15,033 nucleotides of DNA from Deltaproteobacteria bacterium (GTDB lineage Bacteria; Desulfobacterota; DSM-4660; Desulfatiglandales; HGW-15), in assembly GCA_020060215.1 (NCBI GenBank), contig JAGVAP010000069.1:1-15033 (forward strand), given 5' to 3'. Below the pieces are notes generated by a model. The model was not told where the DNA came from and ran no database searches. It saw nothing but the letters and a program-made list of their open reading frames with translations. Position 1 is the first letter of the stretch; the number at the start of each line of letters is the position of its first letter. Shown here piece after piece: positions 534 through 12,295 of this stretch. The position numbers and the translations under genes were made by a program.

Positions 534-2003
534 CTATTTTCCTCCATGGTTCCTTTCAAGCAGGAGCGATATCCCGTCGGCGAGCTGGGTCATGCGGCCC
601 AGGAAAAGGCTCCCCTTGGCCAGGAACAGAGCCCTTTCCATTTCACCGGCCTTCATCTTCCTGACGGCGTGCCCCAGGACCGGCACGGCGGAAGCGATGT
701 GCCCCTGGGTCGGAGAGAACCCGAGCATGCCGCGGGTCTTTACAAAATCGTCCAGCTTGTCCCTCTCTATCTCCTTTCGGAGCACCGCAAAACTCCCGAT
801 GATCCGATAATTCGTCTTCGGCACGTTCCCGCTCCCCTGCGGCTCCGTGATCTCGGGGTTGTGCATCTCGGTCGCGAACTTGTCGATGTCCGTCAACTTC
901 AGTCCCGCCCGGTCCAGGGGCTCCGTGACCAGCTTCCTGAAGATGTCCTGCTGGGAAGAACCGGACTGGATGTCGTGTTTGCCTATCGCGTCGAGCCGGA
1001 TGACCGGACTCTCCCCGTCGTCCTGCGCGATCCAGATGGCAATGCCCGCAAGGACGTCCTCCAGGATCGGCATCCCGTTCCGGACATGCCCGTGGAACTT
1101 CATCCCCAGTTTCGCAAAGGAGCCGCCTGCCACCACGGCCACATTCTTGAAGACGCCGGAGCTGACGAGACCGGCCCCGAGCACCATGGCGTGAACCGGC
1201 GCGCAGCAGAAGGCCTTGGTGTCCGAGCCGGTCGCATTCACGCATCCACACAGCTCCCCGATGGCCTTGGCCATGTTCCCACCGCCCCGGTTGTAGCGGT
1301 CCCCCACGGCCTCCTCGCCGCACCCGATGAGGTAGTCGAAGGCCCTGGCATCGGCGAACCTGGACGCCATATGACGCAAGGCCATGACCCCGCTTGCGCG
1401 GTTGGTGAGGTTCTCCATCAGGATCTCGGGGATGAGATTGAAATCCTCCTCGTGCCCCCTCTGGCAGCAGCCGATCAATTCCCCTCCGTTCCAGAAAAGG
1501 GGCATGGCCTTTTCCTCTCGGATCTTGCTTTCGATCACCTCCAGGGCCACGCCCTTGTTCTCGATCCTCTTCAGGTCCGACTCGGCGATCAGCGGATGGG
1601 CGGCGAGTTTCCCGATCACGTTCTTGAGAAAACCTGCCTCTATCGCGAGCACATCGAAGTCATCGCAGATCTTCACCATCCCGAGGAATTCATCTTCAGG
1701 CATGATCTCGCCGAAGGCTCCTTCTCTGGACGCCTCGGGGCGGTCGTTTTGAAACCATGGCGACGGGGAGCTCGAGAGCTCGTCAGGGTCCATATTCCCG
1801 ATAAAGACCTGGTTCGGCGGATACGCCACGGCCTTTTCGAAGGGGTTCAGATGATTCAGGACCTTTTCGAGCACCGACGGATCCGCAGCGATTTCCCTGG
1901 ACGGCTTGGAGCCGTGCCGGATCATATTGGGTACATGGGCCAGAAAGTAGGTGACCGCCCTGACCACAGGGCGCGTCGGGGTGGATGGTGAACGGCCGGT
2001 CAT
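534..2003 (-). CDS. grdC: Glycine/sarcosine/betaine reductase component C, beta-type subunit (GrdC-like)
   Basis: The 489-residue product matches the GrdC family over its length: an N-terminal YFLAHVPNM segment, YPPNQVFIGNM near residue 61, a thiolase/KASIII-like core with TGSDTKAFCCAPVHA near 258-272 (candidate acyl-accepting Cys266/267), VVAGGSFAKLGM, and a C-terminal GHIASAVPVLGHA then KGSLFLGRM. In glycine reductase, GrdC and GrdD together form protein C, which converts the carboxymethyl-selenoether on GrdA into acetyl phosphate. I chose the start at 2003 because GAAGGAG lies 8 nt upstream; it follows the grdB1 stop by 13 nt. No grdD is adjacent, although the two normally occur together, so this subunit may work alone, with a distant GrdD, or as a different acyltransferase. 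Cytoplasmic. Confidence 0.9.
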   Translation of the reverse strand: MTGRSPSTPTRPVVRAVTYFLAHVPNMIRHGSKPSREIAADPSVLEKVLNHLNPFEKAVAYPPNQVFIGNMDPDELSSSPSPWFQNDRPEASREGAFGEIMPEDEFLGMVKICDDFDVLAIEAGFLKNVIGKLAAHPLIAESDLKRIENKGVALEVIESKIREEKAMPLFWNGGELIGCCQRGHEEDFNLIPEILMENLTNRASGVMALRHMASRFADARAFDYLIGCGEEAVGDRYNRGGGNMAKAIGELCGCVNATGSDTKAFCCAPVHAMVLGAGLVSSGVFKNVAVVAGGSFAKLGMKFHGHVRNGMPILEDVLAGIAIWIAQDDGESPVIRLDAIGKHDIQSGSSQQDIFRKLVTEPLDRAGLKLTDIDKFATEMHNPEITEPQGSGNVPKTNYRIIGSFAVLRKEIERDKLDDFVKTRGMLGFSPTQGHIASAVPVLGHAVRKMKAGEMERALFLAKGSLFLGRMTQLADGISLLLERNHGGK

Positions 2004-2016
2004 GGAAAAGACTCCT

Positions 2017-3321
2017 TCACTGATCAAAAATGGTCTGCTCTTTCACGTCCTTCTGCAAGGCTTCGAGGGCCTTTCTCAGAATGGCCCTTCGCAGCTCTTT
2101 CTCATCCTTCGGTTCCAGATCCGCATTGCCCAGGGGGTTTACGATCTTGCTGCCCGTGACGATCCGGTTGGATCCGACCATCATGGCCACGGGGATGATG
2201 GAACAGACGTGGGCCGTCGGGATGCCCACCCGCTCCAGCTCCTTGACGAGCGTTGCGCCGCAACGCGTGCTGGTGCCTCAGGTGGATGTCAGGATTACAC
2301 CCGATATGCCCTTGGCAATGAGTTCCTCGGCGATCTTTCTCCCGATGCCGCTCATGGTCTCCACGATGTTGGCAACGCCGGTGGTCGTGTAGAATTCCTG
2401 GTGGAGACTTCCGATGGCCCCCTCTTTCTCGAACTCCCTCATGACATCGACGGGCACGAGCCGGTTCGGGTCCTGCCTGACGAAGACCGAGTCATATCCC
2501 ACATGGCTCACTTCATAGTCGCCGGGAGTGAGCGATGCCTCCCCCTCGAAAGAATATTTGCCGAACCGGGTGGCCGTCCTCGATTCGATCTTGTCCGGAT
2601 TCCCCCTGGGGACGAGCCCCCCGTCGGTGACCAGCGCAATCTTGGCCTTGGCCATATCCCTGACGGCCGAAGCGGGCGCCACCCGGTCGTACATGGGGCG
2701 AGGCACCTCGGTCTCGAAAGGCTGCCCCCCGATCTTCCTGAGCAGCATGGAGACCACCCTCTCCGCCCCCGTCTTCTCCGATACCTCGTTCGCAAGCCAC
2801 CCCCGGGGGAAGTACCCCTCCTCCGAAGGTCTGCCGATCCTCTCTTTGGCGGCGAGCTTCAGCGAAAGACGCACGATCTTGTTCACGGCATCGGACATGG
2901 CCCTGACCGAGTCCCCGGTCGAGACGATGTGGACGCTGTTTCTGTAGAGATCCAGCCCCGGGTTCTCCTCGTGCATCCCGGTGACCGCCGGGATGGTGAG
3001 CTGAGCGATCGCGGCCTTGCACATGGCCCCGCAGGCGATCCCGTAGCGGCCGGCATTGAACGCGGGCCCTGCGATCAGGAGGTCCGGTTTGTATTCCCGC
3101 AGTAGGCCGACGATCTCCGCAGAGGCCTTTTCGATGTTTTCAGCAAAGTAGTTGTCGCCGCAGGTGACGGTGACCACGACCTTCCCTCGATCCCCAAGGG
3201 CGGCATCGATGGCACGGCCCGGGCCGACGGCCCCCTGGTGGACCATTGGGCCCGCCTCCGCCTTTTCCTCGCCTCCGATTCCGCCGAAAAACTGATTGAG
3301 ATAATGGGCCACTCTCAGCAT
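2017..3321 (-). CDS. grdB: Selenoprotein B of glycine/sarcosine/betaine reductase (GrdB-like), in-frame UGA = Sec348
   Basis: Reading through the TGA at 2278-2280 gives one 434-residue protein of normal GrdB length (the classical protein is about 428 aa with Sec near 350). The N-terminus (VAHYLNQFFGGIGGEEKA) and the segment ALVTDGGLVPRGNPD at about 230-243 are GrdB hallmarks. The context VILTSTU-GTSTRCGAT is the selenocysteine active site, with Cys353 three residues after the GTST. After the UGA, the frame continues with conserved GrdB sequence (IPVAMMVGSNRIVTGSKI) to residue 434, so this is not a broken gene. A SECIS hairpin follows the UGA. The start at 3321 has GGAGG 6-7 nt upstream; a longer 5' frame is repeat DNA. 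GrdB binds the substrate with the GrdE pyruvoyl group and attacks the C-N bond through selenium. The substrate here is unknown. Confidence 0.93.
2250..2266 (-). promoter_or_regulatory. Bacterial SECIS hairpin for Sec348 of grdB1
   Basis: On the coding strand, exactly 11 nt after the UGA, a 17-nt perfect hairpin forms: GCGTTGC-GGC-GCAACGC, a 7-bp stem with a 3-nt loop beginning GG. An 11-nt spacer plus a 17-nt upper stem-loop is the geometry I recall for the minimal E. coli fdhF element, and a G in the first two loop positions fits the bacterial SECIS consensus for SelB recognition. It lies inside the coding region and is also translated. Confidence 0.85.
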
Positions 3322-3401
3322 CTCCAACCTCCATTTTCCTGCACCGTGGGTGCCACTCCGTAACTGTCCCGAACACGAGCTCTCGGATCGCGGGCTCTTG
3401 C

Positions 3402-3504
3402 AGGATGGGTGGACCCCGGCGGGTCTTGAGCCGGGGGAACCCATCGGTTTGAGGTTCACGCCGCTGGGGAATCGATGGGTTTCGCTGCGCTCCACCCATC
3501 CTAC
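3402..3504. repeat. Dispersed palindromic (REP-like) repeat between grdE1 and grdB1
   Basis: Outer arms AGGATGGGTGGA (3402-3413) and TCCACCCATCCT (3491-3502) are a perfect 12-bp inverted repeat, with inner CCCATCG/CGATGGG. The right part, including ATGGGTTTCGCTGCGCTCC, is identical to the copy at the right window end (14944-15033). The left arm of this copy is altered: the expected GAGCGCAGCGAAA is replaced by a small hairpin, CCCCGGC...GCCGGGG. The 256-bp gap between grdE1 and grdB1 (3322-3577) holds only this element and no gene. No T-run follows, so it is not an obvious intrinsic terminator, but it could fold in the mRNA and change the grdE1:grdB1 ratio. Confidence 0.75.
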
Positions 3505-3577
3505 GATTCAACATTCACGAAGATCCATCTCAAATGAGGGTGAACGCCAAGATCCGGATTTGTCCTTGGACATTTTC

Positions 3578-4870
3578 TCAATACCGCACCGCCGTCCATC
3601 TGGTGCTCCCGAACTGGCACAGTGAGCCATAGATGGAGCCCAGGGGCTGGGTGATTTCACCTTCCACGGGCAATCCGCCCAACACAGCGCCGTCGCTTCC
3701 AATGACCCGTTCCATGGGAGGCAGGACCAGCGTGGCGAATGGGAAACCCATACTGACGATCGCATCCACTTCCGGCATGCTGAAGATGGTCGAAGCCCCG
3801 AATTTGGCGTCCTTGAAATCCGCGCCCATGTGCAGCATGGCAATGGCGGTCCTGATCCCCAGCTGCTCGCACCGCTGCGCAGTGCGCGCCATGGCGAGCT
3901 CCGGGGCGCCCCCTCCCGTCTTGGTCAGGATCGCACCATCGGCGCCGAGGACCCACCTGGCGAGACTTGCGGCGATGTTCGCCATCCTGTCGAAGTCGAA
4001 GACGTTGTTGGGGGCGAGGGTCGCGATCACCCCTGCGAAGCACAGCTCTTTCCCGTTCCTTCGATACAGCTCCTGGATGAGGGGATGGTTCTGGAAGCGG
4101 TAGGTCTGCACATTCAGGCCCGGCAATGCGGAGGTGACGGCCCCGTCCAGGATCTGGTTGGGATGCATGATGGTGGGCAGAATCCCCCCGGCCTGGATCC
4201 CGAACAGCGTCGGCTCTCCGGGGACCGGCTCGTACTGAAGGCTCAGGACCTGGGGGATGTAGACGATCTTCGGCAATCCTTCCATGCCCTTCGCCATCTC
4301 CGTGAGGGGTGGAAGTGCATACGTCTCCACCTCGTCCGGCTCCAGCTCCCTTCCGGCCCAGGCCAGGTAAGCGGCGGCCTTGAGCCCTGCGAGTTTGAGA
4401 CCCGCCTGGAACTGCGGAACGGTCACGTTTTCCTTCGGCCTGGGGATCAGCACGATGTTGAAGGTCTTGCCGTAGGTGCTCACATCGCTCGCCGGGCCGG
4501 ACATGTCGATGAGATGATCGCGGGGATCCATGCTGGTCGTGTCCCCGCCCTTCCGGGCGTCCAGCAGCACGACGGCCGTCCCGCGGAGCACGCATGTCTT
4601 GCCCTGACCGGTGTGTTCATGTTTCCCCGAGTAGCCGAAAGGGCCGTCGCCTTCCATCTTCACCCGGGGTTCGATCACATCGGCCACCTGGACGATCCGG
4701 CATCGCTCCCCGGGACGGGCGATCTCGACGTCCACCCGTTCGAATCTCTTGTCCTTCTGAAGAAAAGCCTGGAGCTCACCGCGGTCGATGGTCATGACAC
4801 CATCCTGGATCTGTGTCCTGCCGCCGAAACGGATGTCCTTGATCCTGATGATATGAAGGTCCAGTCTCAT
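3578..4870 (-). CDS. grdE: Glycine/sarcosine/betaine reductase component B, alpha/beta proprotein (GrdE-like, copy 1)
   Basis: The 430-residue product is the normal length of GrdE (about 428). GrdE hallmarks are the N-terminal ARPGERCRIVQVADVIEPR (51-69), QAGLKLAGLKAAAYLA (155-170), PTIMHPNQILDGA (232-244), and the C-terminal LPPMERVIG near 383. GrdE is made as a proprotein that is cut at an internal cysteine, which becomes a pyruvoyl group that forms a Schiff base with the amine substrate. Here the segment after LDGA (245-260) has no cysteine; Thr246 and Ser247 are the only hydroxyl residues near the expected cut, so either the chemistry differs or the protein is not processed. The start at 4870 (MRLDLHIIRI) has AAGGAG 8 nt upstream and matches the start of copy 2; upstream frame extension is ignored. 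It is the first gene of the minus-strand operon. Confidence 0.9.
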   Translation of the reverse strand: MRLDLHIIRIKDIRFGGRTQIQDGVMTIDRGELQAFLQKDKRFERVDVEIARPGERCRIVQVADVIEPRVKMEGDGPFGYSGKHEHTGQGKTCVLRGTAVVLLDARKGGDTTSMDPRDHLIDMSGPASDVSTYGKTFNIVLIPRPKENVTVPQFQAGLKLAGLKAAAYLAWAGRELEPDEVETYALPPLTEMAKGMEGLPKIVYIPQVLSLQYEPVPGEPTLFGIQAGGILPTIMHPNQILDGAVTSALPGLNVQTYRFQNHPLIQELYRRNGKELCFAGVIATLAPNNVFDFDRMANIAASLARWVLGADGAILTKTGGGAPELAMARTAQRCEQLGIRTAIAMLHMGADFKDAKFGASTIFSMPEVDAIVSMGFPFATLVLPPMERVIGSDGAVLGGLPVEGEITQPLGSIYGSLCQFGSTRWTAVRY

Positions 4871-4989
4871 GATGGGCACTCCTTCTTTTCGGTATCGAAA
4901 CCGTTCCGAGATGGGGCTGTCGCTTTCCTGCTTCCGCCGGGAGACGGGTTGCTCGGGTGGATGCAATCAGGAACGCCGGGAATGGGTGG

Positions 4990-5017
4990 ATTATAGATTG
5001 ACATTAAATACTGTCAA
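4990..5017 (-). promoter_or_regulatory. Sigma70-type promoter of the grdE1 operon
   Basis: On the minus strand, TTGACA (complement of 5012-5017), a 16-bp spacer and TATAAT (complement of 4990-4995) form a perfect-consensus promoter in otherwise GC-rich DNA. It lies about 120 bp upstream of the grdE1 ATG. A perfect dyad (4997-5018) overlaps the -35 box and the spacer. Confidence 0.75.
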
Positions 5018-5018
5018 T
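4997..5018. promoter_or_regulatory. Candidate operator 1: perfect dyad ATTGACA-N8-TGTCAAT
   Basis: A 22-bp perfect inverted repeat with 7-bp arms lies over the -35 and spacer of the grdE1 promoter. Read on the minus strand from 5017, it matches the plus-strand motif at 5164-5185 at 17 of 22 positions. Binding between -35 and -10 is the usual mode of MerR-family regulators, so the divergently encoded MerR-GrdB fusion is the natural candidate ligand. The usual MerR promoter has a 19-20 bp spacer, whereas here it is 16, so repression rather than classical MerR untwisting is possible. Confidence 0.6.
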
Positions 5019-5100
5019 AAAAAACTGGTAGCCGGAGCCGGCGGACGCCGCCCGCCAAGGCGGAAACCCTTGCCTTTCGGACCAAAGGCTTCACAGAGAA

Positions 5101-5130
5101 GTCGTCATCCGGTGAAAGCCGGGATCCATT
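5101..5130. repeat. Fragment resembling the common 'GTCATTCCGGCGAAAGCCGGAATCC' class of dispersed repeat
   Basis: The stretch contains CCGG-tgaaag-CCGG within GTCATCC...GGATCC, an imperfect palindrome very like a dispersed repeat that I recall from many proteobacterial genomes. Just to its left (5072-5089) is an independent small hairpin, GCCTTT-cggacc-AAAGGC, without a T-run. This part of the 406-bp divergent intergenic region (4871-5276) holds no gene. Confidence 0.45.
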
Positions 5131-5163
5131 AGAAGCGCGGCCACCGGCACTATTTCGTTTACC

Positions 5164-5185
5164 TTGCCACTATTTGATGTTAATA
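5164..5185 (+). promoter_or_regulatory. Candidate operator 2, upstream of the merR-grdB fusion
   Basis: The 22-bp stretch beginning TTGCCACTATTTGATG matches the grdE1 promoter dyad (opposite strand) at 17 of 22 positions and keeps a partial dyad (4 of 6 arm pairs). It fills the space between a weak -35 (TTTACC, 5158-5163) and a weak -10 (TAATAA, 5181-5186) that are 17 bp apart, which would suit MerR-type autoregulation. The core CACTATTT occurs again at 5148-5155, exactly 20 bp upstream, about two helical turns. The rest up to 5276 shows only a small CCGGC/GCCGG hairpin (5199-5214). Confidence 0.5.
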
Positions 5186-5276
5186 AAAACAACCATCCCC
5201 GGCCGCTGAGCCGGATAGCCGTGAATCATGCCCGTATCGGCGCAAACGATCGATTCTACTCGAACGAGACACGCGA

Positions 5277-6617
5277 ATGCCGAAAAGACCGGACAAGCGT
5301 ATGAATCCCCGTCCAAGGCGCTTAGGAAAAAGCCTGCCGAGGGAGCTCCTGGTGGAGCTCTTGACCGACAGGAGTTATACCCTGGAGCAGATGCTCGTGG
5401 AGGCGAATCGCCGGCTCCCCTATTTCGCCGCCAAGCAGGAGCGGTACAAGGTATCCGATGAAGTGAGTGAAAGGACCGTCCGGTTCTACATCGGCAGAGG
5501 ACTCATCGACAGGCCCGTCGGCCGCGAAGGCAGAAAGGTCACCTTTTCAAACAAGCACGTTCTGCAGCTCCTGGCCGTGAAATTCCTCCAATCCAACTAC
5601 ATCCCCCTCAGGAAGGTCGTGGACATCATGGCGGTGTTCAAACCCGATGATCTTCTATCCCTCCTCACGGGTGAACGCCCCTTGCCCCTGGCCGCCCCCG
5701 GACTGGCCCGGGACCGCGTCTCTCCTTTCCTTACCGGTCTCGACCATGGAAGGCGCAGACGGTTTCACATCCATGAAAAGCTCGATCTGGGAGTGGACGA
5801 GGATTTCGATGTCCTGGGGGCGGACGTGGATGTGAAGCAGATCGTCACCAGGATCATGCAGGTCCTGTCCCAAACGGCGGGAGGCCATGGAAGCGCTCAG
5901 GACCCGATGAGCCTGGACGCCTGTTTCGAAGAGCCGGATGGGGAACATGCCGGCCCGGCGCACCCCCTGAAAAACCGGGCCGAGGCGGTGGTCGCCCTGG
6001 TGACGGAAGGAGGACTCGTCCCGCGGGGGAATCCGGACCACCTGGAATCCGCCAGGGCCTCCCGCTTTCTTCGCTACAGCATCGCGGACATCGAAGATCT
6101 CAAGCCCGGTGAATTCGAGTCCATCGACCGCGGGTGGGACAGGAAGCACGTCAACGAAGATCCGGACCGGCTCCTGCCCCTCGATGTGATGAGAGAGCTG
6201 GAAAAGGAACATGTTTTCTCGAGACTCCACCCCTATTTCTACACCACCACCGGCGCCGGCACCCCTGCGGATGTCGCCAGGAGGATCGGGAGGGATTTGG
6301 CCGCGGAGCTCAGGGACCAGGGGGTGTCCGGTGTCCTCCTGACCTCCACCTGAGGGATCGGGACTCGCTGTGGAACAGCGATCAGCAAAGAGATCGAGTC
6401 CGCCGGAATCCCCGTCGCCCTGGTGTCGACCCTGGTCCCAACCGCCTTGTTCTGCGGCGCCTACCGCATTGTCCCGGGCTACGCCATCGTGCACCCCCTC
6501 GGAAACCCTTCTCTCCCGCCCCGCCGGGAAAAGGAGATGAGGCGAAAGATCGTGACCGCCGCCCTCGCTTCCATGGAGACCGCGGTCTCCGGAAGCCGCG
6601 TTTTCACCTGGAGCTGA
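5277..6617 (+). CDS. MerR-type DNA-binding region fused to the C-terminal half of GrdB; selenoprotein with Sec359
   Basis: Read through the TGA at 6351-6353, the frame gives 446 residues. Residues ~57-115 look like a MerR winged helix-turn-helix (VSDEVSERTVRFYIGRGLI, then RKVTFSNKHVLQLLAVKFL). Residues ~116-200 resemble the rest of a MerR-like regulator (I do not recognise a ligand pocket), and ~200-232 is a likely linker. From ~235 to the end it is GrdB: ALVTEGGLVPRGNPD (240-254), RLLPLDVMRELEKEH, YFYTTTG, VLLTSTU-GIGTRCGTA with Sec359, and the normal GrdB C-terminus (IVPGYAIVHPLGNP). About half of the residues match GrdB1 from its residue 225 onward. The GrdB N-terminal half is absent. The start could be 5277 or 5301 (in-frame ATG); neither has a strong Shine-Dalgarno. 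Role inferred: a selenocysteine-based sensor regulating the divergent operons. Alternatively it is an enzyme subunit that also binds DNA. Confidence 0.85.
6365..6381 (+). promoter_or_regulatory. Bacterial SECIS hairpin for Sec359 of the MerR-GrdB fusion
   Basis: Exactly 11 nt after the UGA at 6351-6353 is a 17-nt perfect hairpin, TCGCTGT-GGA-ACAGCGA, with a 7-bp stem and a GG-starting 3-nt loop. The geometry is identical to that of grdB1, but the stem bases are almost all different and still paired, which is compensatory change in favour of a functional SECIS. Confidence 0.85.
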
Positions 6618-6644: not shown

Positions 6645-8255
6645 ATGAGACTGGATGTGGAGGCCTTCACGGTCCGCGGGGCCGAGTTCGGCCGCTCTTC
6701 GGCTTTTCGAGACGGCATCCTCTCCATTCATCGACAGGAGTTGATACGGCTGATATCGGAAGACGATCGACTGCGTGGGGTGGCAGTCGAAATCGTGCGC
6801 CCCGGGGAAAAGGTCAGGATCACCAATGTAAACGACATCCTGGAGCCGCGGATCAAGGCCGGCGATGCGACCGGCTATTACCCGGGGATCCTGAGCCGGC
6901 TGTTCAGGGCGGGTCAGGGCAAGACCCGTGTCCTTGAGGGATGCGCCGTGATGGAGATCGGCTACAGGCAGGGATTCTACGGCGGGGTGGTGGACATGCG
7001 GGGAGAGGGGGCTTCCCTCACCCCCTACTCCAGGACCCATAATGTGTGTATCCTGACAGAGCCGGCGCCGGATGTCGATCTGGCCCAGTACGGGCGCGCA
7101 TTGAAACTGGCCGGGGCAAGGGCTTCCGTCTATCTGGCGGGGATTGTATCGGATACGAATCCGGATGAGGTGAGGTCCTATCAACTGAGGGCAGGGGGAC
7201 GGCGGCTCAAGGACCTGCCCAGAGTGGGATACCTGTTCCAGCTCCACAGCCACGGAGACTCCAGGGAGCCTTTCATCTACGGCGCCAACAGCCGGCATTA
7301 CTACCCCACCATCCTCCACCCCAACGAGATCCTCGACGGCGCCATCGTCTGCGGACACTATAACCTGGCCGTTTGCCTCAAGAACCTTACCCACTCGATC
7401 CTGAATCATCCGGTCGTCCTGGATCTTTACGAGCGGCATGGAAAGGAACTGGACTTCAGGGGGGTGGTGGTCGCTCCGGAGCCGACGACCATGGAGGAGA
7501 TCCACCGTACGGCCATGATGGCCGCAGGGCTCATGAAGGACCAACTGGGCGCGGAGGGGGTCATCATTACCAAGGAGGGGGGTGGCCACGCCGATGTCGA
7601 TCTGATGCGGAACTGCGAGGCCTGTGAAGATCTGGGGATGAAGACCGTCCTCATGGGGAACGAGTGGCTCGGCAAGGACGGGAGGGGAAGACTCTCCCTG
7701 CTGGACATGTGTGAAGAGGCCGATGCCGTCGTCAGCCTGGGCAACGTCGACGAGATCGTCGAGGTCCCCCCTGTGGAACAGGTGGTCGGCGGCAGGGTCG
7801 TGGCCGACCTCGGAGGAGATCTGTCCGGGAGGGTGAGCCTCCCCGTCATCTCCATCCCGGGGGCGATCAGCCAGATCGGCGCAAGCCGTCTGACCGTAAA
7901 GGTGAAGGATCCGCGGTCGCCGGAGAGTGCCCGGATCGAGCTCTGCAGGAGGGCCAAGGATATCCTCGAGACCGCCGGCGGTAGCGAGGGCGCGGGTGAG
8001 GCCACGCTCCGGATGGTCCGTCTCCTCTCGAAGATCTGTCGCAGCGATCCCGGCGGAAGAACGCTGCAGAAGGGGTATCCGTCCAGGGGGGGCCGTAAGA
8101 ACGTGTTGAGCGACAAACGCGGATCTCAAAGGGCGATCGAGCTCCTCCTCAGAAAAATGGAGGGAAAGGGTTTCGATACCGAGATCGATTTCCCCGGCCG
8201 GGGAAGGAGTTCTCTCGGCGCTTCGCTGGAGACCGCAGGGTCAAGTGAGCGCTGA
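6645..8255 (+). CDS. GrdE-like component B proprotein (copy 2) with a C-terminal GrdB-derived extension
   Basis: Residues 1-419 of 536 are a GrdE: VEIVRPGEKVRITNVNDILEPR (split around 48-69), ALKLAGARASVYLAG (152-166), PTILHPNEILDGA (221-233), VEVPPVEQVVGG near 372. In the region where GrdE proproteins are cut to make the pyruvoyl group, this copy has Cys236 and Cys244, unlike copy 1. Normal GrdE ends near 430; here about 117 extra residues follow. Residues 456-514 align without a gap to GrdB1 148-206, with 23 of 59 identical (for example LLRK and FETE/FDTE). This is the GrdB segment just before the part carried by the upstream MerR fusion. The start has GGGAG upstream and lies 27 nt after the fusion's stop. 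The two proteins may assemble into one GrdE/GrdB-like complex; this is an inference. Confidence 0.87.
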   Translation: MRLDVEAFTVRGAEFGRSSAFRDGILSIHRQELIRLISEDDRLRGVAVEIVRPGEKVRITNVNDILEPRIKAGDATGYYPGILSRLFRAGQGKTRVLEGCAVMEIGYRQGFYGGVVDMRGEGASLTPYSRTHNVCILTEPAPDVDLAQYGRALKLAGARASVYLAGIVSDTNPDEVRSYQLRAGGRRLKDLPRVGYLFQLHSHGDSREPFIYGANSRHYYPTILHPNEILDGAIVCGHYNLAVCLKNLTHSILNHPVVLDLYERHGKELDFRGVVVAPEPTTMEEIHRTAMMAAGLMKDQLGAEGVIITKEGGGHADVDLMRNCEACEDLGMKTVLMGNEWLGKDGRGRLSLLDMCEEADAVVSLGNVDEIVEVPPVEQVVGGRVVADLGGDLSGRVSLPVISIPGAISQIGASRLTVKVKDPRSPESARIELCRRAKDILETAGGSEGAGEATLRMVRLLSKICRSDPGGRTLQKGYPSRGGRKNVLSDKRGSQRAIELLLRKMEGKGFDTEIDFPGRGRSSLGASLETAGSSER

Positions 8256-8276: not shown

Positions 8277-9260
8277 ATGAGAAGTCGAAGGTCGGACATG
8301 GCGTGTCTGGGTGTTTCTTTGTTGACTCTCTTCCTCACCTGCTTCCTCGGGGTCCCGGCTGTTTCAGCGGAATACCCGGACCGAACGGTCACCGTGGTCG
8401 TGCCCTTTCCTCCGGGGGGCGTGACCGATCTCGGGGCCAGGGCCTTTGCGGCCGCCATGGAGAAACACCTGAACAAGCCCTTCGTGGTGGTGAACAAGGC
8501 CGGCGGCGCGACGACCATCGGAGGCAACGCTGTCGCCGCTGCCAAACCGGATGGTTACACCATCGGGTATTTCCCCCCCATGGCGAGCATGCCCGAAGTC
8601 TACAGCTATTTCTTCCAGGCCCCTTACTCGAGCAAGGACCTGAAGCCGGTCTGCCGGGTCGGAACGGCCGTCGGCGCGATCTGTGTCAAAGGGGACGCCC
8701 CCTTCGAGAGTTTCAAGGATCTGGTCGAGTACATCCGCAAAAACCCTGGCACAAAATGGGGCATCAACACCAAGACCTCCCCCAGCTACATCATCATGCG
8801 GGCGATTGCCAAGAAAGAGAACATCCAGATCACCGACGTGGCCTTTGACGGCGACACCAAGATCGTGCCGGCCATCCTCGGAGGACACATCCCCGTAGGA
8901 TCCCCCACCTATCCTTCCGTGAGGGCCCTGGTGGACGCAAAGCAGATCAAGCTGGTGGCCCTGCTCGTAGAAGAATACGCCGACTTCATGCCCAAGGTGC
9001 CTACCATCGTCGAACTCGGCTACAAGGTCCCGCCGGGCATGTCCAACTCCGTGTTCGCACCGAAAGGGACCCCGGAGGAGATCGTGAAGATCCTGAATCA
9101 GACGGCCTCCAAAGTTTCGCAGGAACCGGAGTTTCGTTCAAAGCTGATGGGGCTCGGCATTCTCCCCGCGTACCGGGAAACCGTCGCGTTCGAGGCGACC
9201 ATCGCGCAGGAAATAAAGGAACTGCAGGTCTTCTTCAAGGAGGAGGGACTGGTCAAGTAG
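8277..9260 (+). CDS. TctC/Bug-family periplasmic substrate-binding protein, copy 1
   Basis: This 327-residue protein begins with a Sec signal peptide (basic n-region, hydrophobic core about 10-27, cleavage after VSA before EYPDRT). The mature protein has the TctC/Bug signature: [17 protein letters not shown] near the N-terminus, [23 protein letters not shown], and DLVEY.RKNPG in the middle. Bug proteins bind small carboxylates, with the PGG-x-TD loop contacting the carboxylate, and deliver them to the TctA-TctB membrane pair. The start at 8277 has AAGGAGG 8 nt upstream and follows grdE2 by 21 nt, so it belongs to the same transcript. It is the first of two tandem paralogues. Confidence 0.93.
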
Positions 9261-9321
9261 GCTCCCGCCTCGGACCGGATCCCAGTTTGAAACCATCTCA
9301 GTGACATGGAGGGAGGCGCAC

Positions 9322-10308
9322 ATGAAGACAACGAGATCTTTCACCGTCATTGCCAGTGTCCTTATTTCTATGATGTTCGTGGCCACGATGTGTTCCGGAG
9401 TCCGGACGGCTGCGGCGGAGTATCCGGACCGGACGATTACACTGGTCGTACCCTACCCTCCGGGAGGCGTCACCGACCTCGGCGCCAGGGCGCTCGCGGA
9501 GGAGATGGAAAAGCGGCTGCGTCAGCCCGTGGTGGTCGTGAACAAGGCCGGGGGAGCGACGACCATCGGCGGCAATGCCGTGGTCACGGCAAAGCCCGAC
9601 GGCTACACCCTCGGGTTCTTCCCTTCATCGGCGAGCATACCGGAGGTCTATACCTACTTCTATCAGGCGCCCTACTCCAGCAAGGACCTCAAGCCGGTGT
9701 GCAAGGTGGCCGTGCCCGTCCTCACGATCTCCGTCAAGTCCGATTCTCCCATGAACAGTGTGAAGGACCTCGTGGAGTACGCCCGGAAGAACCCCGGCAC
9801 CAAGGTCGCCCTCCACGGCAGGAGCACGGTGGGGTATCTGGCCATGCGGACCATCGCCAAGACCGAGAATGTCAATCTTGTGGATGTGCCGTTTGACGGG
9901 GACACCAAGATCGTGCCGGCCATCCTCGGCGGCCACGTGCCCTGCGGCACCCCGGCCTACCCGGCCGTCCGGGCGCTGGAGGACGCCAGGCAGATCAAGG
10001 TGCTGGCGCTCCTGACCGAAAAGAGGGCGGATTTTGCCCCGAACATCCCATCCATCACCGAAGCCGGTTACAAGCTGCCGGCCGGCGTCTATCTGGGGGT
10101 CTTCGGGCCGGCAGAGATGCCTGACGAGATTGCCGGAAAACTCAGTCAGGTGATCGCGAAGATCGCGGAAGATCAGGCCTTCCGCACCAAGGTCCACAAC
10201 ATGGGGATACAGGTGAACTTCGACGACACCAAGTCCTTCCGTGGGTCGATCAATGATTACATCAAGAATCTGCAGGTCTTTTTCAAGGAGGAAGGCCTGG
10301 TGAAATAG
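9322..10308 (+). CDS. TctC/Bug-family periplasmic substrate-binding protein, copy 2
   Basis: A 328-residue tandem paralogue of the preceding gene; by eye more than half of the mature residues are identical, including [53 protein letters not shown] and the last 14 residues. The signal peptide is cut at TAAA before EYPDRT. The start at 9322 is preferred over 9301 because GGAGGG lies just upstream and the signal peptide then begins MKTTRS. The copies differ most at residues that follow SVK/CVK and in the C-terminal lobe (PPGMSNSVF versus PAGVYLGVF), which suggests different ligands or affinities rather than a recent duplication. Confidence 0.93.
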
Positions 10309-10314
10309 GGTGGC

Positions 10315-10767
10315 ATGACCATGCCGAAGCGGCTTGAAGGGGTTCTCTGGATCGCCGTCGGGGTCGTGATCTGCGTCCTGTCTCGACGGACGGGCATAGG
10401 GACCTTCACCGAGCCCGGGGCCGGCTTTGTGGCCATGGTCTCCGGGCTCTTCCTGATCGCCGTCGGTTCGATCATGAGTGTGGTCCGAAAGGAAACGGGG
10501 GACGGGCAAGGAAAGCCGCGGGCCCCGGAACGGCTCCAGAAGCTCTTTCTCACGACCGCACTCCTGATCCTGTACGGCCTCTTCCTCGAGCCGCTGGGAT
10601 ACGTGCTCACGACTTTCCTGTTCATGCTGGGCCTGTTCCGGGATCTGGGGAGACGCCGTTTTGCGGCTCCCTTCTTCGCATCCCTCGCAAGCGTGGCGCT
10701 CACGTACGCCCTGTTCGAGATCTGGCTCAAGGTCCGGTTCCCCCGGGGCGTCTTCCCATGGTGGTAG
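10315..10767 (+). CDS. tctB: Tripartite tricarboxylate transporter small membrane subunit (TctB)
   Basis: A 150-residue membrane protein with hydrophobic segments near 9-25, 37-56, 80-105 and 113-132, the usual TctB pattern of about four helices with a basic cytoplasmic loop in the middle (RKETGDGQGKPRAPERLQK). The family is poorly conserved in sequence, so the call rests on topology, length and position between tctC and tctA. It starts 6 nt after tctC2 and ends 7 nt before tctA. It forms the permease with TctA. An alternative ATG at 10321 is possible. Confidence 0.85.
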   Translation: MTMPKRLEGVLWIAVGVVICVLSRRTGIGTFTEPGAGFVAMVSGLFLIAVGSIMSVVRKETGDGQGKPRAPERLQKLFLTTALLILYGLFLEPLGYVLTTFLFMLGLFRDLGRRRFAAPFFASLASVALTYALFEIWLKVRFPRGVFPWW

Positions 10768-10774
10768 ATTAGGC

Positions 10775-12295
10775 ATGCTCCACGATCTTCTGTACGGGTT
10801 CGGGGTCGCGCTCCAGCTCCCGAACCTCCTCGCCTGCTTTATCGGCGTCCTCGTCGGCACGCTGATCGGGGTGCTGCCGGGCATCGGACCGGTCGGCGCC
10901 ATGTCGATCCTGCTGCCCATCACCTTCGGTCTGTCGCCGGTAGCCGCCATCATCATGCTGGCAGGCATCTACTACGGTTCCATGTACGGGGGATCGACCA
11001 CATCCATCCTGGTGAATATCCCCGGGGAGGCGGCCTCCGTGGTCACCTGCCTCGACGGCTACCAGATGGCCCGGAAAGGCCGCGCAGGACAGGCGCTGGG
11101 CATTGCCGCCTTCGGGTCCTTTATTGCCGGGACGATTGGCCTCGTGGGCCTCATGCTCATGGCCAACCCTCTGGCGGGCTTTGCGGTCAGGTTCGGCCCT
11201 GCTGAATATTTTTCCCTGATGTGCCTCGGCCTGTCGGTGCTCCTCTATCTGACGCACGGATCGGTCCTGAAGGGACTGGCCATGGCGGGCGCCGGGCTCT
11301 TCCTGAGCCTCATCGGACAGGACATCGTGACGGGAAAGGTTCGGTTTACCTTCGGCTTCTTCGGTCTGCAGGACGGCGTGGGCCTGGTGCCGATGGTCAT
11401 GGGGCTCTTCGGCATCTCGGAGGTCCTGATGAACCTGGAACAACCGTCGGAGAGGACGGTACTCTCGACCAGGATCACAAACCTGCTCCCGAGCAGGAAA
11501 GACTGGGCCGCGGCCGCCAAGCCCATCGGGCGGGGTTCGCTTCTGGGATTCTTCCTGGGGATCCTGCCGGGGGGCGGGGCCGTGATCTCCTCGTTTGTCT
11601 CCTATGCCCTGGAGAAGCGGCTCTCGAGACACCCGGAGCAGTTCGGCAGAGGCGCCATCGAAGGGGTCGCCGGACCGGAGGCCTCCAACAATGCCGCAAG
11701 CAGCGGGGCGTTCATCCCGCTTTTCTCCTTGGGGATACCGGCCAATGTGGTCATGGCGCTCCTCCTCGGCGCCCTGATGATCCACGGCCTGCGGCCGGGG
11801 CCGTTGATGATTACGGAAAGTCCCGAGATCTTCTGGGGCACCGTCGCCAGCATGTATGTCGGCAACGTCCTGCTCCTCGTGCTCAACCTCCCCCTGATCG
11901 GGCTTTGGGTGCGCGTCCTGAAAATCCCCTACAAGATCCTCTTTCCGCTCATCCTCCTCTTCTGCCTCATCGGCGTCTACACCATAAACGGAAACATCTT
12001 CGATATCTTCGTGATGATCCTCTTCGGCATCGTGGGGTATGTGCTTCGCAAGACCGGATACGAGCCCGCCCCCCTCGTCCTCGCCTTCGTGCTGGGGCCG
12101 ATGCTGGAGCAGAACCTGCGGCAGGCCCTCATCCTCTCGGATGGAAGCGCGATGGTGTTCATCACGCACCCCATATCGGCCGCCTGTCTGATCGTTTCCC
12201 TCTTCCTCGTGGTCACCGGCGCCATCCCGGAGATCCGAAAGAGGCGCAAAGCGGGGAAAGAGGGTTCCGTGCCGACGTCCAGCCCGTATTCCTGA
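10775..12295 (+). CDS. tctA: Tripartite tricarboxylate transporter large membrane subunit (TctA)
   Basis: The 506-residue product has the normal TctA length and about 10-12 hydrophobic segments. Family signatures are GVLPGIGPVGAMSILLPIT (32-50), NIPGEAASVVTCLDGYQMAR (81-100) and, in the second half, GILPGGGAVISSFVSYALE followed by GPEASNNAASSGAFIPLFS. TctA is the ion-coupled permease that carries the substrate given up by TctC. The start at 10775 (MLHDLLYGFG) is chosen because it is 7 nt after the tctB stop and gives the canonical N-terminus; the frame stays open further upstream but overlaps tctB. Confidence 0.95.
   Translation: MLHDLLYGFGVALQLPNLLACFIGVLVGTLIGVLPGIGPVGAMSILLPITFGLSPVAAIIMLAGIYYGSMYGGSTTSILVNIPGEAASVVTCLDGYQMARKGRAGQALGIAAFGSFIAGTIGLVGLMLMANPLAGFAVRFGPAEYFSLMCLGLSVLLYLTHGSVLKGLAMAGAGLFLSLIGQDIVTGKVRFTFGFFGLQDGVGLVPMVMGLFGISEVLMNLEQPSERTVLSTRITNLLPSRKDWAAAAKPIGRGSLLGFFLGILPGGGAVISSFVSYALEKRLSRHPEQFGRGAIEGVAGPEASNNAASSGAFIPLFSLGIPANVVMALLLGALMIHGLRPGPLMITESPEIFWGTVASMYVGNVLLLVLNLPLIGLWVRVLKIPYKILFPLILLFCLIGVYTINGNIFDIFVMILFGIVGYVLRKTGYEPAPLVLAFVLGPMLEQNLRQALILSDGSAMVFITHPISAACLIVSLFLVVTGAIPEIRKRRKAGKEGSVPTSSPYS

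Follow-up and report, generated by a model that had tools for sequence, protein, structure and literature searches.

The Deltaproteobacteria bacterium of assembly GCA_020060215.1 carries a gene in which a MerR-type winged helix is joined to the C-terminal domain of GrdB, with an in-frame UGA codon at the position of the GrdB selenocysteine (Sec). Judged from sequence, the product is probably a Sec-bearing local regulator whose GrdB domain would take a metabolic signal. The window is the whole stretch of DNA analyzed, 15,033 nt of contig JAGVAP010000069.1. Relatives are named here by locus, with L001 coming from HGW-Deltaproteobacteria-15 (genome G001), L002 from Syntrophaceae bog_1155 (G002) and L022 from genome G308. 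The gene and its parts are:

5277–6617, + strand: MerR-GrdB(C domain) fusion gene, 446 residues with Sec359; stop codon TGA at 6615–6617
5373–5642, + strand: MerR-type winged helix, residues 33–122 (Pfam match at 63–119)
5754–5879, + strand: small beta-beta-helix module, residues about 160–201, motif E/D-L-x-L/H-V (alignment; model, pLDDT 55–71)
5988–6614, + strand: GrdB C-terminal domain, residues 238–446 (profile matches)
6126–6128, + strand: Asp284, where all 15 GrdBs compared have a His (alignment)
6351–6353, + strand: UGA, Sec359 (translation, DNA comparison, dN/dS, database ends)
6365–6381, + strand: SECIS-like hairpin, 7 pairs with 3-nt loop GGA (folding, shuffles)
6369–6371, + strand: Cys365 codon, partner cysteine of a U-x5-C motif (alignment)

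Architecture, recurrence and origin of the fusion

Translation of the frame 5277–6617 yields a single in-frame TGA, codon 359 (6351–6353). Profile searches match both parts of the protein, as the earlier note had proposed in describing a MerR helix-turn-helix joined to the C part of GrdB; its partner cysteine, numbered 364 there, is residue 365 by 1-based count. PF13411 (MerR_1) matches residues 63–119 with 30.9 bits (cut-off 21.6), PF07355 (GRDB) matches residues 220–358 with 156.3 bits over profile positions 209–347 of 347, and TIGR01918 matches residues 222–443, spanning the UGA, with 235.9 bits (cut-off 65.45). TIGR04483 (PrdB) matches residues 274–439. The two-domain chain of GrdB is incomplete in the fusion, which holds only profile positions 209–347 and the part after Sec, and this part starts where the predicted C domain (226–434) of the window's true GrdB starts. 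The DNA-binding domain has the MerR-family fold, its nearest structural neighbor being PbrR691 (5gpe). MerR family members carry a long antiparallel dimerization helix after the winged helix; in the model of the fusion (mean pLDDT 74) the winged helix is followed only by short helices at 111–120 and 123–131, with no long dimer helix. The beta-beta-helix module is shared with unfused cousins. MerR proteins with diverse input domains are a known kind, as are enzymes turned regulators. Unlike PbrR691 and other MerR regulators, the fusion would have a selenoenzyme domain as its sensor, and it has no known metal site. By architecture alone it can be likened to CarH, since both place a Rossmann-like input domain after a MerR winged helix; CarH, whose cofactor domain is of the Rossmann type, acts as a MerR-like repressor and uses cobalamin and light, not selenium. 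In PutA, BirA and Ada, which contain no selenocysteine, a DNA-binding domain is combined with an enzyme domain whose sensing works through a ligand or a covalent modification.

The fusion recurs in 21 distinct proteins, the window's included, and so is not an assembly error. This set comprises the fusions from the profile search, P0006 (from a search with residues 1–232) and the L022 protein. Residues 1–232 as query retrieved four proteins besides the window's own, and with a profile built from the N-terminal part there were 26 matches, 19 with GRDB and seven with MerR only. Alignment A8 consists of 19 fusions and one plain GrdB piece, and 19 of these 20 rows match MerR_1 (E up to 0.01). Among the 395 genomes of the phylum of G001, 11 have any match (E up to 1e-10) and two, G001 and G308, have fusions; the 85 genomes of the class of G001 hold the G001 fusion and one unfused cousin, while the 46 genomes of the class common to G002 and G308 hold those two fusions. 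GrdB is found by TIGR01918 in 20 of the 395 genomes, and fusions account for 2 of the 27 matches. Because only two occur among the 395 genomes and among these matches, the fusion is rare. In a tree of 41 GrdB C domains, 20 fusions fall on one side of one branch (support 98/92), showing a single origin at the sequence level, and the GrdB of L002 is closest to this clade (94/86, long branch). The earlier note had named three outcomes that would count against it (no MerR match, a sequencing error, and absence of the fusion from relatives), and each turned out the other way.

The UGA codon and its hairpin

The Sec motif of the fusion reads LLTST-U-GIGTRCG. All 20 database versions of the fusion stop right before Sec, with [LF]T[SA]T as their last residues, and in each of the four fusions for which DNA was compared (window, L001, L002 and L022) the next codon is TGA, followed by an in-frame GrdB end. 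Sec and one nearby cysteine are kept in 4/4 complete fusion sequences. Between the window and L001, dN/dS by a simple counting method is 0.173 in the MerR part and 0.377 in the linker; within the GrdB part it is 0.127 up to Sec and 0.116 beyond it. As the ratio is as low after the UGA as before, the read-through product is under selection. The UGA of the fusion is presumably read as Sec in the window's organism. SelB scores over the cut-off in both relatives' genomes searched, G001 and G002, although the G002 match extends only over positions 1–263 of 581. For tRNA-Sec, G001 has a match over the cut-off and G002 has none.

All seven pairs of the hairpin occur at the same place in the four fusions and in the four GrdBs of the same loci. 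The hairpin was reached by 0.04–0.66% of synonymous-codon shuffles of the fusions (0.04% for the window fusion) and by 0.32–3.1% of those of the GrdBs, for a geometry that was set only after the folds had been viewed. Fold energy of the 54-nt stretch is weakly unusual in the window fusion (z −1.69, 32/500 shuffles as low), and whole-stretch fold energy in most of the hairpin sequences is without significance. The closing pair is T-A in the window and L001 and C-G in L002 and L022, the change in the Cys codon being silent. An Rfam search of the window gave no match over the cut-off. The in-frame UGA in GrdB Sec context and the SECIS hairpin, both described in the earlier note from the window alone, are thus present in 4/4 fusions each, and the survey for the same fusion with conserved UGA that it had called for finds both in relatives.

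Candidate operators and neighboring genes

The fusion gene is flanked by genes for grd-type reductases and transport:

205–531, − strand: thioredoxin (profile)
534–2027, − strand: grdC, component C beta subunit (NF040746)
2017–3321, − strand: complete grdB with in-frame UGA (profiles, DNA)
3578–4870, − strand: grdE, PF09338, lacking pyruvoyl-site cysteines (profile and alignment)
4990–5017, − strand: promoter TTGACA-N16-TATAAT into grdE, its −35 box being one arm of operator 1
4997–5018, no strand: candidate operator 1, perfect inverted repeat ATTGACA-N8-TGTCAAT (comparison, genome search)
5164–5183, no strand: candidate operator 2 upstream of the fusion gene, TTAACATCAAATAGTGGCAA on the − strand (comparison, shuffles)
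6645–8255, + strand: GrdE-like protein, PF09338 (404 bits); its C-terminus (residues 406–519) corresponds to GrdB profile 98–211
8277–9260, + strand: tctC solute receptor (profile)
9301–10308, + strand: second tctC solute receptor (profile)
10661–12295, + strand: tctA permease, match starting near 10826 (profile)

The divergent region between grdE and the fusion gene is 406 nt long in the window and 788 nt in L001. In the window it spans 4871–5276, the target region proposed in the earlier note, and holds both candidate operators. In a blastn comparison of the window and L001 regions, only two blocks are alike, and they are collinear. Block 1 comprises operator 1 and the grdE promoter, and block 2 contains operator 2, a related palindrome. 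The grdE promoter matches the consensus at 12/12 positions, and 0/200 shuffles of the window yield such a promoter. Upstream of the L002 fusion lies TTGACAGTAAATACTG, with no mismatches to the 16-mer core and a −10-like TAAGAT 18 bp on; it is the only match to this core in G002 with up to one mismatch. The palindrome is likewise found upstream of a MerR-CoA-transferase gene in G181 and of an unfused cousin in G462. A search of five genomes (20.7 Mb) with up to three mismatches locates the 20-mer only at these two places and at the operator 1 and operator 2 sites of G001, none being found in G002 or G308; control searches gave two matches, both in G462. G001 (7 Mb), the nearest searchable genome, thus has the 20-mer at its two operator sites alone against no control matches, while the G462 match is a single one with three mismatches against two control matches there. 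Compared with 1000 shuffles, the palindrome beats chance in 5/7 upstream regions (0–4/1000), for a consensus drawn from these same sites after they were seen. No palindrome above chance was found upstream of the L022 fusion (326/1000 shuffles) or the L010 cousin (901/1000).

The G462 cousin (L023:8972–9571), unfused and 200 residues long, is related to the MerR part; the palindrome lies directly before its gene, and the neighboring genes that were read include no grd gene. In the product of the G181 gene (L024:7940–9952, − strand), an acetyl-CoA hydrolase/transferase follows this MerR N-terminal module (PF13411, PF02550, PF13336), and the palindrome lies 19–38 bp upstream. In Peptoclostridium acidaminophilum, a sigma-54-dependent regulator (L061:1–601) precedes the sarcosine reductase genes grdG-grdF, which represents a different control.

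The MerR-type winged helix would bind this palindrome (about TTGACACTAWATAGTGTCAA) at the divergent grdE-grdB promoter and beside its own gene. Input would come through the GrdB C domain, which carries Sec359 and Cys365 and in which the enzyme fold and most conserved residues are kept and an invariant His is lost. This domain would most likely bind, or react once with, a substrate or protein partner of the adjacent reductase; either event would alter DNA binding, and the signal would lift repression of the grdE-grdB promoter. The fusion probably regulates the grd and transport genes as a repressor. Classical MerR activators have their operator between −35 and −10 boxes that are 19–20 bp apart. 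The spacer is 16 bp at the grdE promoters of the window and L001, 18 at L002, and 19 at L022, where the −10 box is poor; the candidate operator at the window's grdE promoter thus departs from the classical spacing. Because operator 1 overlaps the −35 box and the spacer is 16 bp, a repressor that the signal releases is likelier than an activator of the classical MerR type. DNA binding, repression and the nature of the signal are what we infer from these arrangements.

The neighbors bear on the possible signal. Both window GrdE-type proteins are without a cysteine aligning with the pyruvoyl cysteine region of P. acidaminophilum GrdG, and for this reason both reductases may act on substrates needing no Schiff base. 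The fluoroacetate subunit FarE is likewise reported to be without the two cysteines (PMC10838667). The two tctC genes and tctA beside the fusion suggest a small carboxylate or amino-acid-like substrate. By reading of translations, L001 has trimethylamine-type methyltransferase-like and corrinoid protein genes beyond the transporters (17093–19100, − strand) and a TRAP transporter within its grd operon, and L022 has an opine-dehydrogenase-like protein and an amidohydrolase in its grd operon (1361–3717, − strand), which hint at N-substituted amino acids as substrate.

The GrdB domain as sensor or enzyme

The window fusion keeps 29 of the 33 C-domain positions that are invariant in 15 GrdBs. The four lost are I to V and L to M (both conservative), A to T, and His273 of the motif H-x-G-Y/F-D. 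This His is Asp or Ser in 19/19 aligned fusions and in all 21 overall, and the Tyr/Phe of the motif is Trp in the fusions. It is kept in P. acidaminophilum GrdF, a sarcosine reductase subunit known from experiment, in an Acetoanaerobium noterae GrdB and in a PrdB-like protein (L046). Still present in the fusions are Sec, Cys365 and the TTTG and GGLVPxGNPD motifs. Like GrdB, GrdF and GrdH of glycine, sarcosine and betaine reductase, the fusion has the C domain with TST-U-Gxx-TRCG and the TIGR01918 match across the UGA; unlike them, it is without the N-terminal domain, the invariant His and the middle cysteine of U-x2-C-x2-C, and has gained a DNA-binding domain. It resembles PrdB, the D-proline reductase selenoprotein, in having the C half only, and differs from it by the DNA-binding domain, and from the L046 PrdB-like protein by the missing His. 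Because the invariant His is replaced in every fusion, the GrdB domain is most likely a sensor rather than an enzyme. The earlier suggestion that an enzyme half has become a sensor gains from this loss, from the intact GrdE-GrdB pairs near other fusions and from the conserved palindrome at adjacent promoters. Its further proposals, that Sec359/Cys365 may detect substrate, oxidant or alkylating compounds and that the UGA may act as a selenium switch, stay conjectural. A GrdB C-domain protein without MerR in G037 (L053:1456–2568, − strand) has Thr for Sec and Ser for Cys (TATTGTGTRSG) with His kept, and by its sequence is a selenium-free GrdB relative.

A fusion that is still a working Sec subunit, to which the GrdE-like neighbor supplies the rest of GrdB in trans and which binds DNA when idle, is unlikely, although several features fit it. 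The tail of the GrdE-like protein stops at GrdB profile position 211 and the fusion picks up at 209; the same complementary split is seen in L001, and four more GrdE-GrdB(middle) proteins are in the databases. The fusion also keeps nearly the whole enzyme motif and most GrdB-invariant residues, and PrdB is homologous to the C half of GrdB only (TIGR04483). Against a working subunit stand the replaced His and an intact GrdE-GrdB near the fusion in two relatives. L002 has the fusion, a thioredoxin-reductase-like gene and then a complete grdE-grdB pair, its corresponding GrdE being without the GrdB tail. In G308 the order on one strand is fusion, thioredoxin, grdC, grdA, TAXI-type receptor and permease, two more enzymes, grdE and complete grdB (gene names from reading translations; only 103 bp of contig precede the fusion). 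In both, the fusion is therefore not needed for catalysis. The GrdE-like neighbor is, in addition, without the GrdG pyruvoyl cysteine, though there are reductases that lack it (PMC10838667). As for the split itself, the GrdB partner of the GrdE-like protein appears to have collapsed in the window's lineage, and that protein may now offer the regulator a docking site in place of the lost GrdB.

Somewhat less probable again is a redox or selenium-supply switch, whose signal would lie either in the redox state of Sec359/Cys365 or in the proportion of full-length to UGA-terminated, 358-residue protein. It is consistent with the Sec and nearby Cys kept in every complete sequence, and termination at the UGA is expected to compete with read-through; part of one study puts UGA recoding at 30–40%, with enough selenium needed (PMC4513850). 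Such competition is common to every UGA-coded selenoprotein, however, and hence is no evidence of a switch, and substrate-pocket motifs are conserved beyond the redox pair, which a redox sensor would not need. Truncation at the UGA would fall inside the Rossmann-like domain, between strand 352–357 and helix 360–375 of the model, making a stable short regulator doubtful; a low-selenium switch at the UGA is possible, though unsupported. An artefact, whether mis-assembly or a decaying gene with the UGA as its real stop, is highly improbable, since the annotation of database copies as ending at the UGA is outweighed by the 21 distinct proteins and the single clade, which refute mis-assembly, and by the low dN/dS after the UGA.

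To return to the sensor reading, a bolder form of it, tentative and short of even likelihood, makes Sec359 the sensing nucleophile in a natural family of Sec-bearing transcription factors, the selenium being alkylated by the adjacent reductase's substrate in a single turnover. The lost His would prevent completion of catalysis on alkylated Sec359, and the alkylated protein would stay off the promoters of the grd and transporter genes until it was reduced or replaced. Such a protein would be the selenium equivalent of Ada and other covalent sensors.

Searches of the open-access literature found no description of a selenocysteine-containing transcription factor, in agreement with the earlier note, which knew of none of this design. 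The sections consulted of a 2026 review of prokaryotic selenoproteins contain no MerR, helix-turn-helix or DNA-binding member, and a putative FmdB-family regulatory protein comes closest (PMC13188914); no Sec regulator was found in the corresponding parts of a 2022 review (PMC9312934), or by term search in the accessible text of PMC5029168 and PMC8318568. The fusion copies found bear MerR-regulator names or none, and if the reading is right, Sec regulators have escaped notice because gene prediction ends them at the UGA. The second fusion of this MerR module, to a CoA-transferase, suggests a wider habit of recruiting metabolic enzymes as sensors. The regulator and its palindrome form a testable pair for the switching on of grd-type reductases in uncultured anaerobes, and a handle on the substrates of these reductases. 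If our reading is right, selenium chemistry serves gene regulation, beyond catalysis.
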